A stretch of DNA of 64,000 nt, taken from positions 2,321,001 to 2,385,000 of the forward strand of contig NZ_CP041186.1 in assembly GCF_006517175.1 (NCBI RefSeq), read 5' to 3'. This DNA is from Persicimonas caeni (GTDB taxonomy: Bacteria; Myxococcota_A; Bradymonadia; Bradymonadales; Bradymonadaceae). The position numbers were made by a program, and so were the translations under genes. Position 1 is the stretch's first letter. Each line of letters opens with the position of its first letter. Positions 10,957 to 16,245 of the stretch are shown one piece after another. The notes beneath the pieces are model-generated. The model saw only the letters and a list, made by a program, of their open reading frames with translations, made no database searches and was not told the origin of the DNA.

Positions 10957-11616
10957 ATGAAACTCCGATTACGCCTCGCCCCACTCCTACTTGCCCTGGC
11001 AGCCGCCTTCCTGCTCGCCGGCTGCGTCAACGTCGCCGGCGGCAGCCTCGGTGTGTCGCTGCTCGTCTTTTTGGTCGCCCTGATGGGCCTGGGCGCCGCC
11101 GCCTGCAGTGATGACACCTCTGAGGGCCGAGACACCGGCTGGCAGGTCGGCGAAGATACCGGCTCGGACGCCGACGACGCCGACGATGCGACCGACACGC
11201 AGGACGGCCGATGGGAGTCGTGCTGCGAGAACGGTCGCGTCGACTCGTGCTTCTGCCCGGCCGGCATGGCCTGCAATTACGGCATGTACACCGATTGCGG
11301 CGACGGCACGTGCTCCTACGACCCGCAGGGGTGCTACGACACCGGGGACGCCGGCGATGTGTCGGACACGACCGACACGACCGACACGACGGACACCTCG
11401 GATACCTCCGACACGACCGACACGGCCGACACCTCCGACGTCACCGACGAGCCCGATGGAACCTGGGAGCCGTGCTGCCAAGACGGACAGGTCGACACGT
11501 GCTTCTGCCCGGCGGGCGTGGCCTGCAACTACGGATGGTATACCGACTGCGGCGACGGCACGTGCGTGATGGGCGGCGGCGGCCAAGACGAATGTAAAGT
11601 TGACGCGGGAATGTAA
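10957..11616 (+). CDS. Lipoprotein with two Cys-rich modules joined by an Asp/Thr linker
   Basis: 219 aa. A signal peptide ends in the lipobox LLAGC (Cys23). A second hydrophobic stretch (SLGVSLLVFLVALMGLGAAAC) follows. Two homologous 36-residue modules (about 86-122 and 170-206) each read W-E-x-C-C, then S/TCFCPAG, ACNYG and YTDCGDGTC. The linker is dominated by DT repeats. Such lipoproteins are common in Myxococcota-like genomes and are probably surface-exposed; the DT linker would be a flexible stalk. It is the first gene of a tight operon: only 3 bp separate its stop from the diiron gene. Function unknown. Confidence 0.85.
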   Translation: MKLRLRLAPLLLALAAAFLLAGCVNVAGGSLGVSLLVFLVALMGLGAAACSDDTSEGRDTGWQVGEDTGSDADDADDATDTQDGRWESCCENGRVDSCFCPAGMACNYGMYTDCGDGTCSYDPQGCYDTGDAGDVSDTTDTTDTTDTSDTSDTTDTADTSDVTDEPDGTWEPCCQDGQVDTCFCPAGVACNYGWYTDCGDGTCVMGGGGQDECKVDAGM

Positions 11617-11619
11617 ACG

Positions 11620-12420
11620 ATGAGCCACAAAGCAAGCTTCGCCGGCGGCATCTTCGCCGACTTTCACGACGAACTGATGGGCGTCGACATCGACTTCGAC
11701 GCCTTCGACCCCTCTCGATTCGACGACGACCTGGTCCACCAAGCGCGCCACGTGTGGCTCGAGCGTTTCCAGACCGAGTTTCGCTCCACCCAGATCATGA
11801 CGCGGTTCATGACCGAGGTCCTGGGCGCCGGCGACCCCGTCGACGTCTACGCCGGCTGCGTCGACCTCATCGAAGACGAGGTACGCCACGCCGCGCTGTG
11901 CGCCGGCATGTGCGGCGCGCTGGGCGTCGAGGCGCGCTTTCCCGACCCGGTCGCCCTGCAAGATCCCGAGCGCTTTCTGCGGGCGCCGATGGGCGAGCGC
12001 GCGCTGCACACCGCGATCACCATGGTGGCGATCAACGAGTCGCTGTCGTTCGGCTTCATCACCGACCTGCGCGAGCGCTGCGGGGAGCCGACGGTGCGCG
12101 CCGTGCTCGACGCGACCGTCGAGGACGAAGAGGGCCACCAAGATTTCGGCTGGATCTACATCGAAAAGTCGCTCGGGCGCTTCCCCCGCTCGACGATGAA
12201 CGCCTGGCGGCACCTCGTGCAGACGACCCTGAAGACCCACCTCGACGCCGCCGGCCCCATTCTGGACGAGATGAGCGACGACGCCAAAGATCTGGCGAAG
12301 TGGCCCGACGCCGAGCGCGTCCAACTCGGCCTATACAGCCCGCAGCGTCAGGCGCTAGTCTTCCAGAAGACCTACCAAGAGGTCGTCAAACCGAAGCTCG
12401 AAAAGCTCGAGCTTCTGTAA
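11620..12420 (+). CDS. Ferritin-like diiron protein
   Basis: 266 aa, cytoplasmic and helical. The two-iron ligand set of the ferritin-like four-helix bundle is complete: E54; E87 with H90 (EDEVRH); E140 (INES); E170 with H173 (EDEEGH). Families with this arrangement include AurF-like N-oxygenases and other diiron oxidases, but I cannot assign a substrate. It starts 3 bp after the lipoprotein stop and ends 25 bp before the His-rich membrane protein, implying translational coupling. Its neighbours suggest it oxidises something in, or made by, the membrane partner (inference). Confidence 0.83.
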   Translation: MSHKASFAGGIFADFHDELMGVDIDFDAFDPSRFDDDLVHQARHVWLERFQTEFRSTQIMTRFMTEVLGAGDPVDVYAGCVDLIEDEVRHAALCAGMCGALGVEARFPDPVALQDPERFLRAPMGERALHTAITMVAINESLSFGFITDLRERCGEPTVRAVLDATVEDEEGHQDFGWIYIEKSLGRFPRSTMNAWRHLVQTTLKTHLDAAGPILDEMSDDAKDLAKWPDAERVQLGLYSPQRQALVFQKTYQEVVKPKLEKLELL

Positions 12421-12445
12421 CGAGCTTCCGCAGGCAGTCGGACCC

Positions 12446-13516
12446 ATGGCACAAGCAACCGCACAACAACCCAAAGCGATCTTCCACCCGTGGGTCGACG
12501 CGCTGGCCATCGGCGGGCTGTCCATCGGGTTCATCACCTTCCTGTTGCTCGTCGAGCCCAACTGGAACTCGAGCCAGGTCGCCGAGCAATTCGTCATCCT
12601 GTCGGCCCTGCTCAACTGGCCGCACTTCATGGCGACCTATTTTCTGCTCTATGGCTCCAAGGAGACCGTGGAGCGCTACCCGTGGTCGACCAAGTGGATG
12701 CCGCTGCTCTTGGGCGCGTACTGCCTGGCCACGATCTTCATCGCCCCCTACTCCGAGATGCCGCTCAACCTGGCGCTCTTCTCGGCCGGCGCGTATCTGG
12801 CCTGGCACTACACCGGCCAGACCTGGGGGATGATGGCCACCTTCTCGTACCTGGGCGGCGCGCCCATCGACGACTCCGAGAAGAAGTTCTTGCGCCTCAG
12901 CCTGCGCCTCTTGTTGGTCTGGCACCTCGTCTGGTTCCTGTTCCACCCGCCCGACTACGGGCTGCACGAGACGCTGCTGCCCAAGTACTACCTGGTCTAC
13001 CGCTCCGCCTCGATCATCTTGATCGGCGCCGGCATCATCCTGGGCGGCTACGGGATGTACCGCTACATCAAGCGCATCGAGCGCACCCCGCCGATCCGCG
13101 TGCTCATCCCGTTCGTGTCGATCTGGCTGTGGTACGCGCTCCTGGCGGTCTACCCGTTCGCCATCTTCTGGGTGCAGCTGTCCCACGCGCTGCAGTACCT
13201 GCTCTTCCCGGCGCGCGTCGAGGTCAACCGCAAGGAGAAGCAAGCCGCCGACGCCGACGCCCGAGGCGGCCGCTCCTGGCTGCAACTGGCCGGCTACGCA
13301 GTGCTCCTGCTCGGCAGCGGCGTGCTCATCTTCGAGGGCTTCCCTCGCCTGCTCGAGTGGACCGTGCCGCTCGTCGGCGCCGGCGTCACGCTCGCCCACA
13401 CCAAGGCCGCCATCGGCGCGTTCATCAATATCCACCACTTCTTCGCCGACGGCGCCATCTGGAAGATCAGCAACCCGGCGGTGCGCGGCGAGTTGTTCTC
13501 GCACCTCAAAAGATAA
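12446..13516 (+). CDS. Polytopic membrane protein with conserved-looking His motifs, unknown
   Basis: 356 aa with about eight hydrophobic helices. Histidines lie at or near helix ends in motif-like contexts: NWPHF (57-61), WHYTGQ (120-125), SHALQY (246-251), AHTK (317-320) and NIHHFFADGAIW (328-339). Distributed His plus an HH...D motif recalls membrane metal enzymes such as desaturases or hydroxylases, but the classical HxxxH/HxxHH desaturase boxes are absent. It is the third gene of the operon with the lipoprotein and diiron protein. The 42-bp tandem array follows directly. I do not recognise the family. Confidence 0.8.
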   Translation: MAQATAQQPKAIFHPWVDALAIGGLSIGFITFLLLVEPNWNSSQVAEQFVILSALLNWPHFMATYFLLYGSKETVERYPWSTKWMPLLLGAYCLATIFIAPYSEMPLNLALFSAGAYLAWHYTGQTWGMMATFSYLGGAPIDDSEKKFLRLSLRLLLVWHLVWFLFHPPDYGLHETLLPKYYLVYRSASIILIGAGIILGGYGMYRYIKRIERTPPIRVLIPFVSIWLWYALLAVYPFAIFWVQLSHALQYLLFPARVEVNRKEKQAADADARGGRSWLQLAGYAVLLLGSGVLIFEGFPRLLEWTVPLVGAGVTLAHTKAAIGAFINIHHFFADGAIWKISNPAVRGELFSHLKR

Positions 13517-13572
13517 GCCGCACTCGGGACGCACGCGGTCGCCGCCCGAGCGACTCGACCGCCTCCGCGATC

Positions 13573-14090
13573 GACCGCGCTCGCCCCACGCCGCAACTCA
13601 CCGCCTCCGCGATCGACCGCGCTCGTCCCGCGCCGCCCCTCACCCTCGCCCCGATCGAGGCCGCTCGTCACCATCGTCACTCCACCCTCGCCTCGATCGA
13701 CCGCGCTCGTCCCCGCCGCAACTCCTCCCCAAGAGCAGACGACCGCGCTCGTCCCACATCGAAGGTGCACCCCCGCGCCGAACGACCGCGCTCGTCCCGC
13801 CCGAAGGTCACCCATAACTATTAACGACCGCGCTCGTACCATGCCGAAGGTGAACCCCTACGCTCAACGACCGCGCTCGTCACGCCCGAAGGTCACCCAA
13901 AAATCCCGACGACCGCGCTCGTCCCGTGCCGAAGGTGAACCCCTGCGCCCAACGACCGCGCTCGTCCTGCCCGAAGGTCGCCCCAAAATCCCGACGACCG
14001 CGCTCGTACCGTCCAAAGGTCACATGAAAATCCCGACGACCGCGCTCATTTCCGCCGAGGGTCCCCCTTCGGCGGCGACGACCGCGAGCA
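13573..14090. repeat. Thirteen-unit tandem array with a strict 42-43 bp period
   Basis: The core GACCGCGCTCG starts at 13573, 13615, 13657 (degenerate), 13699, 13741, 13784, 13826, 13869, 13911, 13954, 13996, 14038 and 14080 (degenerate). Spacing is always 42 or 43. From about 13760 a second core, CCGAAGGT, falls in each unit about 19 bases after the first. Units alternate between two spacer types (GTGAACCCC and GTCACCCAA forms). The period equals four turns of B-DNA. No reading frame here looks like a protein. The gap 13517-14277 otherwise carries only the palindrome at 14123-14232. Confidence 0.9.
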
Positions 14091-14277: not shown

Positions 14278-16245
14278 TCACTCACAAGGCACGCCCGCCA
14301 ATCCAAACTTCTCGTCGAGCTCGCCCAAGACCTCCCGGGCGGCCGACGACTCCCGGCACGCCCGCTCGATCAACGCCTCGTCGCGCGCCTCCAAAGGCTC
14401 GCCCATGCGCCGGCTCTCGAACGACTCGAGGCCCTCGACGTCGAAGGCGTGCGGCCGGTTCAGGTTCTTGCGCAGGTAGACGTAGCGGTCGGCGGCGTGG
14501 ATGGCGACGCCGCGCACCTCGGGGACGCGCGAGGCGGTGAAGCAGTAGGTGAGCCGGTCGTCGGGCGCCGGGTGCAGCAGGCTCTGGCCGTCGGGCTCGA
14601 CGACCGGCGGCATCGACCACAGCTCGAGCACCGTCGGCAAGATGTCGACGTGGGAGCTCAGCTTACCGGTGTTGGCGGCGAGGACGCCGCGGTCGACGCC
14701 CAATCTCTGCTGCCATTCTTTGGGCACGTACATCAGCATCGGGGTTCGGGCGTAGACCGGCTCGCACGAGGAGACGCGCGCGCCCTGGAACATCGCCGGC
14801 TCGTCGCGGCGCAGGGCCTTGTGGCCCGCGCGGTATTTGGCCTCGTTGAGCTCGATGGCGTGGTCGCTCACGAAGATGACCACCGTCGAGTCGAGCCGGC
14901 CCTTCTCTTCGAGCGCGTCGAGCACCTTGCCGACCGCCGCGTCGCTTCGGGCCATCGCCGCGTCGTAGCGGTCGACCGACCCCTCGATGGGCCACGAGAC
15001 GTCGTCGAGCGCGTGGTAGGGGAAGTGGGTGGCGTTGAGCTGGAAGATGCCGAAGAAGGGCTCGGCTTTGGCCGAGGCGTCGCCGATGAGCTCGACGACC
15101 TTGTCGGCGGCTTCGAGGTCGTCGCCGCCGGCGTCGTTGACGACTTCGAGGCCGAGCGCCTCGGCGTCCCAGAAGGCGTCGGGCGGCTGGTGGTCGATAT
15201 AAAAGCCGGTCAGGTTCGCCCAGCCCCACGGCTGCGCGCTGACCAAAAAGGTCTCCATCTCGGCGGCCTGGGCGTATTGCCAGATGACCGGCGCGCTCCG
15301 GAGCACGTCGGCCGGAGCGGCGTAGTGCTTGCCCAACAGGAGTCCCATGCCCGAGGCGAGTGTGGCGGCGGCGTTGGCGGTGTGGCGTTGGAAGGCGAAG
15401 ACCTCGTCGGGCCGCCTCTGCGCGAACCCGGCCATCGCGGGCGTCGTCGCACGACCCGGCTCGCCCCACAATTGCGTGCGGTCATTGCGCACGCTCTCGG
15501 CCAAGATCAACAGCACCGACGGGCGCTCGCTCGGCTCGTTCGGATCGTTCGGCTCAGAGGCGACGGGCGGGACTTCGGTGCGCTCGGCGGGCCGCATCAT
15601 GATCGAACTGACCCCCTGCGCATAGAAGCTCACGCCCTGCTCGCCGACTTTGAGCAGCCGGATATCGGTGGGGTACGGCGTCCACGGGTTCTCGACGACC
15701 GACGGCCACGTCGTCCACACCACGAGCGGCACCGACAGCACCGCCGCCCCGGCAATGAGGCGTCGGTTGCGGCGAGGCGCTTCGGGCTCGGCGTCGTCGA
15801 TCGCGCTGTAGAGCGCGGCGGCCAGCCAGACGATGGGCAGCAAGATGAGCGCGGCGAGCCAGCCGGGCGAGACGCCGGCCATGGCGAGTTCGATGGCGTA
15901 GAGGGGCTCTTCGAGCAGGAAGGCGACGACGGTGGCGGCCGGGTCGTAGTGGCGAAGCGTGCGAAACCGCCACGACGCCACGATGAGCACGCCCAGCGGC
16001 ACGACGACCAGCGGCAGCAGAATCCAGCGAAGCCGCGAGCCTTTGACCAGGCTCACCAGGCCCCACCAAAGCGCGACCGACAGGCCCACCGACCCCAGAA
16101 ACCAGGGCCAGAAGACGATGGGCTCGCGGGCGTGCTCCTGGACCCAGCGAAACTCGAAGTCGCCAATGAGGATGGTCAGAGGGATGAGCAGCAGCGCCCC
16201 GATGCGGGCGAGTCGTCCCGTCTTGTCTTCGGCGCGCTGTGCCAT
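14278..16245 (-). CDS. Membrane-bound sulfatase-fold protein (LTA synthase/phosphoethanolamine transferase type)
   Basis: 655 aa. The N-terminal 180 residues carry four to five membrane helices; a soluble alkaline-phosphatase-superfamily domain follows from about 240. Visible are SVLLILAESVRNDR with its first metal-ligand Glu, RHTANAAATLASG where the nucleophilic Thr is expected, QLNATHFPYH, and VSDHAIEL in the position of the SDHGE metal motif. Such enzymes transfer phospho-headgroups onto lipids or glycans at the outer face of the inner membrane, or hydrolyse sulfate/phosphate esters; the exact substrate is not readable. It lies 26 bp downstream of the UbiB-family gene on the same strand, so the two are probably an operon. 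Confidence 0.82.
   Translation of the reverse strand: MAQRAEDKTGRLARIGALLLIPLTILIGDFEFRWVQEHAREPIVFWPWFLGSVGLSVALWWGLVSLVKGSRLRWILLPLVVVPLGVLIVASWRFRTLRHYDPAATVVAFLLEEPLYAIELAMAGVSPGWLAALILLPIVWLAAALYSAIDDAEPEAPRRNRRLIAGAAVLSVPLVVWTTWPSVVENPWTPYPTDIRLLKVGEQGVSFYAQGVSSIMMRPAERTEVPPVASEPNDPNEPSERPSVLLILAESVRNDRTQLWGEPGRATTPAMAGFAQRRPDEVFAFQRHTANAAATLASGMGLLLGKHYAAPADVLRSAPVIWQYAQAAEMETFLVSAQPWGWANLTGFYIDHQPPDAFWDAEALGLEVVNDAGGDDLEAADKVVELIGDASAKAEPFFGIFQLNATHFPYHALDDVSWPIEGSVDRYDAAMARSDAAVGKVLDALEEKGRLDSTVVIFVSDHAIELNEAKYRAGHKALRRDEPAMFQGARVSSCEPVYARTPMLMYVPKEWQQRLGVDRGVLAANTGKLSSHVDILPTVLELWSMPPVVEPDGQSLLHPAPDDRLTYCFTASRVPEVRGVAIHAADRYVYLRKNLNRPHAFDVEGLESFESRRMGEPLEARDEALIERACRESSAAREVLGELDEKFGLAGVPCE

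Follow-up and report, generated by a model that had tools for sequence, protein, structure and literature searches.

We found that, in Myxococcota, a gene for a Cys-module lipoprotein and a gene for a ferritin-like diiron protein are conserved together as a translationally coupled pair, a conclusion that is well supported by the genomes compared below. We propose, in a reading that we hold to be evenly balanced between right and wrong, that the two genes are a maturation unit in which the diiron enzyme oxidatively modifies its lipoprotein partner as a ribosomally made substrate. The pair was found in a 64,000-nucleotide stretch of the Persicimonas caeni genome (the window), where a gene for a polytopic membrane protein follows it (Table 1). 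All three genes are on the + strand, spaced by 3 bp (lipoprotein to diiron gene) and 25 bp (diiron to membrane gene), with a strong coding bias (GC3 of 0.84, 0.88 and 0.94, respectively), in agreement with the layout given by a first-pass annotation of this DNA. The P. caeni genome is a single contig of 8.05 Mb and carries one full-length copy of the lipoprotein/diiron pair. Pfam and NCBIfam searches with each of the three proteins returned no model at its cut-off, and the membrane protein fits no known family. No match was found in a PDB sequence search with the single window proteins or in a search of viral contigs, and a promoter scan of the window region found no sigma-70-like site, a result that is uninformative. 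The gene calls, the lipobox and modules, the diiron ligands and the conserved membrane histidines are not chance features.

Table 1. Position of the genes and of the Cys modules in the window.
Feature	Position	Strand	Description
Cys-module lipoprotein gene	10957..11616	+	219 aa; proposed precursor/substrate; ORF and sequence
Cys module 1	11203..11334	+	DGRWESCCENGRVDSCFCPAGMACNYGMYTDCGDGTCSYDPQGC; profile of 22 modules, E 9e-21
Cys module 2	11455..11580	+	DGTWEPCCQDGQVDTCFCPAGVACNYGWYTDCGDGTCVMGG; profile of 22 modules, E 4.5e-22
Ferritin-like diiron oxygenase/oxidase-type protein gene	11620..12420	+	266 aa; alignments, AlphaFold2 model, fold and profile matches
His-conserved polytopic membrane protein gene	12446..13516	+	356 aa; H121, H247, H330, H331 and D335 invariant; model pLDDT 87

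The lipoprotein, with its signal type called by pattern, bears an LAGC lipobox at C23 (11023-11025) and, after a short loop, a second hydrophobic segment ending in A-C at C50 (11104-11106). The duplicated Cys modules reported by the first-pass annotation were recovered by profile. Across 22 modules, the consensus of about 40 residues reads xGxWExCCxDGxIxTCxCPAGAACNYGWFxDCGDGTC, with G2, C8, C18, P19, C24, N25, Y26, C32 and C37 invariant. Modules of this C-x-C-P-x4-C-N-Y class occur in 1-4 copies per protein, two in the window lipoprotein, and the linkers between its segments and modules are acidic, low-complexity and rich in Thr and Asp. The ORFs upstream of homologous enzymes show the same organization, with a two-hydrophobic-segment N-terminus followed by modules; the lipoproteins of L098 and L099 lack the first segment and start with an ordinary signal peptide. 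In three lipoproteins (L083, L084 and L182), the linkers contain long near-perfect repeats of the DTDVAQ/DVGDSGT type, which suggests length variation by slippage. Neither the window lipoprotein nor its counterparts in sister clades belong to a Pfam or NCBIfam family above cut-off. A MYXO-CTERM surface protein, which would end in a Cys motif, a transmembrane helix and a basic tail, was considered and rejected since the lipoprotein ends in ...GGQDECKVDAGM and has no C-terminal helix. The sole PDB match to the Cys module, the disulfide-rich plant peptide jasmintide js3 (E 0.04), was taken as chance or convergence.

The diiron protein carries a ligand set composed of E53 (11776), E87 (11878), H90 (11887), E140 (12037), E170 (12127) and H173 (12136), that is two E-x-x-H pairs and two Glu. 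The four Glu are invariant and both His are conserved in at least 90% of 52 sequences with identities down to ~20%. The complete site described in the first-pass annotation thus stands, with its first Glu corrected from E54 to E53. The AlphaFold2 model (pLDDT 97) is an all-helical, ferritin-like four-helix bundle that superposes on VlmB (azoxy synthase), ADO (aldehyde deformylating oxygenase), the archaeal PaaA-like protein SSO1313, R2lox and PaaA with Z scores of ~15-16 over 190-227 residues. Furthermore, the family profile matches AurF, DesA2, ADO and MiaE. The Pfam AurF model (PF11583) gave weak matches in 28 of 52 relatives (best 1e-8) and none at E 0.01 in the window protein itself. Because its best fold matches are VlmB, ADO, PaaA and R2lox and its profile matches are those listed above, the diiron protein, which is a member of a large Myxococcota family, is predicted to belong to the O2-activating oxygenase/oxidase branch of the ferritin-like fold rather than to the storage ferritins. 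It has no evident signal peptide and is therefore probably cytoplasmic. In one relative, L093 (9780-10577, - strand), both His ligands are replaced, by Gln and Arg, and a gene for a GMC-type oxidoreductase lies upstream where the lipoprotein would be; a change of function is possible. P. caeni also encodes a second, weak ferritin-like match (410 aa, E 1e-5), a different and longer protein without such a lipoprotein partner.

We observed that the module lipoprotein and the close enzyme are strongly associated across 377 Myxococcota genomes: 16 carry both, 1 the module only, 6 the enzyme only and 354 neither (p=2e-22). The module profile alone, with E values up to ~1e-5, finds 17 genomes, the seventeenth being the module-only case, in which the contig breaks right after the lipoprotein. 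In 17 of the 23 enzyme-clade relatives sampled, as well as in the window, the lipoprotein gene directly precedes the enzyme gene in the same orientation, with stop-to-start distances of -4 to +52. Around 20 enzyme relatives (40-75% identity, up to 10 kb on each side), the Cys-rich lipoprotein is the only widely recurrent neighbour family, and no other enzyme, carrier, reductase, metal transporter or regulator gene recurs in these flanks. A search of genome contigs with two peptide patterns specific to the window enzyme clade returned 8 MAG loci, all matching loci already found (6 titled Myxococcales or Lujinxingiaceae, 2 without clear phylum). The module-lipoprotein partner is missing at enzyme-clade loci L086, L093 and L140. 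Three further members of the clade, L096, L138 and L139, have no CNY partner and a different or no clear lipoprotein; other lipoprotein-like ORFs lie upstream in L096 and L139 and on the opposite strand in L138, and could possibly represent a further partner class. Conversely, module lipoprotein G190:C88 stands alone. In genome G196, the lipoprotein encoded at L185 (3892-4101, - strand) is 69 aa long, has one Cys module and lacks an adjoining ferritin-like enzyme, and a similar weak module match was seen in G111, from the same genus.

More distant relatives of the enzyme (20-35% identity) frequently occur in several copies per genome. For the wider family, the small ORFs directly upstream were read at 120 sampled loci, which were then scored by automatic rules. 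In a first set, a lipobox-bearing ORF lay within -20 to +60 bp at 30 of 60 loci compared to 8 of 262 controls (p=1.5e-18). Six motif classes were distinguished: CNY modules, C-terminal GPxxPPxM tails, repeated N-x-P, NPKGSxY, RPxCGN and GFILS ends. With classes first drawn up by eye on these loci and rules set only afterwards, an upstream ORF bearing one of the six motifs was found at 74 of 120 loci versus 31 of 354 control genes, 27 of the 354 controls matching the loose GPP rule. The CNY and CGN classes (17 and 6 of the 120 loci, respectively) were absent from the 354 controls. By these rules, 45 loci had no recognised motif partner and one more lay at a contig edge; perhaps the small ORF was missed at some of the 45, and related motifs were seen by eye at L114 and L126 (NPKGSRY) and at L201 (INPDA repeats). 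Several motif classes often show 4-nt overlaps of the ATGA type. The motifs lie, in 1-4 copies per protein, within otherwise low-complexity lipoproteins, and between clades the partners have no domain in common, only short motifs. When the motif classes were mapped on the tree of 117 enzymes, 5 changes were needed, the minimum possible (mean of 34.9 with shuffled labels), a congruence that vertical descent of a fixed gene pair alone would also produce. Each enzyme clade thus has, by the motifs of its upstream ORFs, its own kind of partner. The recurrence of motif lipoproteins before diiron enzymes, with a motif that follows the clade, suggests an undescribed family of protein-modifying enzymes in Myxococcota.

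The membrane protein belongs to a separate family. Among 25 relatives (22-57% identity), the four His and the Asp listed in Table 1 are invariant and H60 is nearly so; since this conservation holds at such identities, a metal or haem site within the membrane is plausible. The His clusters, which had been described as unlike the classical desaturase boxes, align as PHF, WHY, HALQ and HHxxxD, and a membrane desaturase or hydroxylase was rejected because HxxxH and HxxHH boxes are absent from this pattern. Brp/Blh carotene dioxygenase (PF15461), suggested by PHG/WHF-like motifs, is likewise polytopic with several conserved His in its helices, but the profile-profile comparison (hhalign probability 0.2%, E 0.3) led us to reject it, and PF15461 has no match in the P. 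caeni genome. The family has no Pfam, NCBIfam or PDB match, and a fold search with the AlphaFold2 model gave matches that are weak, partial and not interpretable (Foldseek E of 0.07 or more), the best being VIA (Z 8.3 across 103 residues that form a helical stretch of TTYH2) and NarI (7.6). Members are widespread in Myxococcota (L003-L030), occurring in 67 of 377 genomes; multiple copies per genome are frequent, as are forms of 550-600 aa.

The genes next to the membrane gene differ in every relative, and it adjoins the diiron gene only in P. caeni, where it is probably co-transcribed with the pair. The 4-20 kb of flanking DNA retrieved for each of 20 membrane homologues contained no relative of the diiron protein. 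In the reverse direction, the only diiron-enzyme locus with a nearby member of the membrane family is L130; the paralogue there is distant, longer and encoded on the other strand, and it bears a repeat-like C-terminal extension. Only one genome of 377, P. caeni itself, has both a close membrane homologue and the enzyme, indicating no co-occurrence (p=0.63). The membrane protein is therefore a separate, lineage-specific neighbour and no conserved part of the system. The first-pass annotation had proposed a paired soluble and membrane metal chemistry; as the diiron and membrane genes are not kept together in other genomes, that pairing is not supported as a conserved feature, and the undescribed association that it saw in all three genes reduces to the lipoprotein and diiron genes, which are kept as a unit.

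In the pathway that we infer, from substrate to final role, the first gene would encode a lipoprotein precursor with repeated short motifs (two C-P-x4-C-N-Y modules with an acidic low-complexity linker) and the coupled second gene a cytoplasmic ferritin-like diiron oxygenase or oxidase. The enzyme would bind the newly made precursor in the cytoplasm, where its diiron centre would activate O2 and oxidise residues in each module, Asn-Tyr or the module Cys being the candidates. Oxidation would precede Sec export and lipidation, and the modified Cys-module lipoprotein would then be shown on the cell envelope. Extended to the phylum, the same idea would describe an undescribed class of ribosomal-peptide maturation in which each diiron enzyme, commonly one of several in a genome, modifies its own co-encoded lipoprotein at a clade-specific motif, a generalization that we advance tentatively and with some doubt.

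A lipoprotein substrate is favoured over a small-molecule pathway by the lack of a third conserved gene, by the repetition of motifs within proteins of low complexity and by the change of motif with enzyme clade. In such a pathway, which we regard as unlikely but a serious contender, the enzyme would oxidise a lipid, an aldehyde or an amine, and the lipoprotein would separately bind, sense or display the product. This agrees with the nearest folds, since ADO, AurF, PaaA, R2lox and VlmB are, so far as characterised, small-molecule enzymes; yet the additional enzyme, carrier or reductase genes do not recur around the pair, and partners that share only short, clade-dependent motifs are hard to fit to a generic binding protein. 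Metal or redox homeostasis, in which a ferroxidase- or rubrerythrin-like protein would accompany a Cys-rich, metal-binding surface lipoprotein, seems improbable. The Cys-rich modules and a match to Rubrerythrin (PF02915) below threshold (21.1 bits against a gathering cut-off of 22.8, E 4e-4) are consistent with it, whereas the fold and profile matches point to oxygenases, the diiron protein has no rubredoxin domain, and no metal transporter or regulator recurs nearby. Furthermore, Cys is scarce or absent in the sister-clade partners of the NxP, CGN and FILS types, which argues against general metal storage.

Close loci do share neighbours by descent, as L090 and L091 share several, and the pairing could in principle be a relic of vertically inherited neighbours with no functional link. 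We consider this very improbable because the pair is kept at identities as low as ~40% and in several families, with every other neighbour changing around it, and because overlapping stop and start codons are common across unrelated motif classes. A three-gene pathway in which a surface partner would join a soluble diiron protein and metal chemistry within the membrane could draw on the 25-bp gap and shared strand in P. caeni and on the conserved His and Asp of the membrane protein, but it is hardly credible and, as a conserved system, largely refuted by the neighbourhoods and genome counts given above. Several observations also count against the lipoprotein being the substrate of the enzyme: the 45 loci without a motif partner, the absence of the lipoprotein at L086, L093 and L140, the different or unclear lipoproteins of L096, L138 and L139, the solitary G190:C88, the loose GPP rule, and the fact that vertical inheritance of a fixed pair would yield clade-congruent classes as well.

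MNIO/DUF692 enzymes, an unrelated iron family, modify lipoprotein precursors that are recognised by a short conserved motif and encoded in very short clusters; DAG-RiPPs such as DybA/DybH and NedA/NedB/NedC are RiPP-lipoprotein hybrids, and their authors predicted further RiPP-lipoproteins beyond MNIO (PMC12636315). The window pair appears analogous to these systems in design: a small precursor with a lipoprotein signal carries a short conserved motif, single or repeated, and its gene shares a very short cluster with that of an oxidative non-haem iron enzyme. At the level of genes, the lipobox, the modules and the coupled candidate enzyme make it a candidate RiPP-lipoprotein hybrid in the wide sense. 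In contrast, the enzyme is a TIM-barrel MNIO in DAG-RiPPs and a ferritin-like helical bundle here, which places the window pair outside the MNIO class; the motifs also differ. A literature search found no description of ferritin-like enzymes with RiPP or lipoprotein partners in a limited collection, where absence is no proof.

AurF, VlmB, ADO, PaaA and R2lox share with the window protein the fold (Z 15-16) and the two E-x-x-H pairs with two Glu, but are only 10-15% identical to it, and no Pfam model matches the window protein at the gathering cut-off. These enzymes act on small molecules and, to our knowledge, have no coupled lipoprotein. Should the lipoproteins prove to be substrates, the editing of proteins would be added to the small-molecule chemistry for which this widespread diiron fold is known, and ferritin-like oxygenases would be a new family of maturases acting on RiPPs or proteins. 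Myxococcota, which are predatory, social bacteria, would then carry many lipoproteins with different modifications on their surface. The same reading would account for a large set of genes that match no Pfam or NCBIfam family. Since P. caeni carries a single full-length copy of the pair, the substrate question is directly testable in this species.

Finally, a GC-rich imperfect repeat array (CGACCGCGCTCGTCCC...) with a spacing of ~42 or 85 bp was observed at 13530-14086, between the membrane gene and a convergent sulfatase-like gene (14278-16245, - strand).
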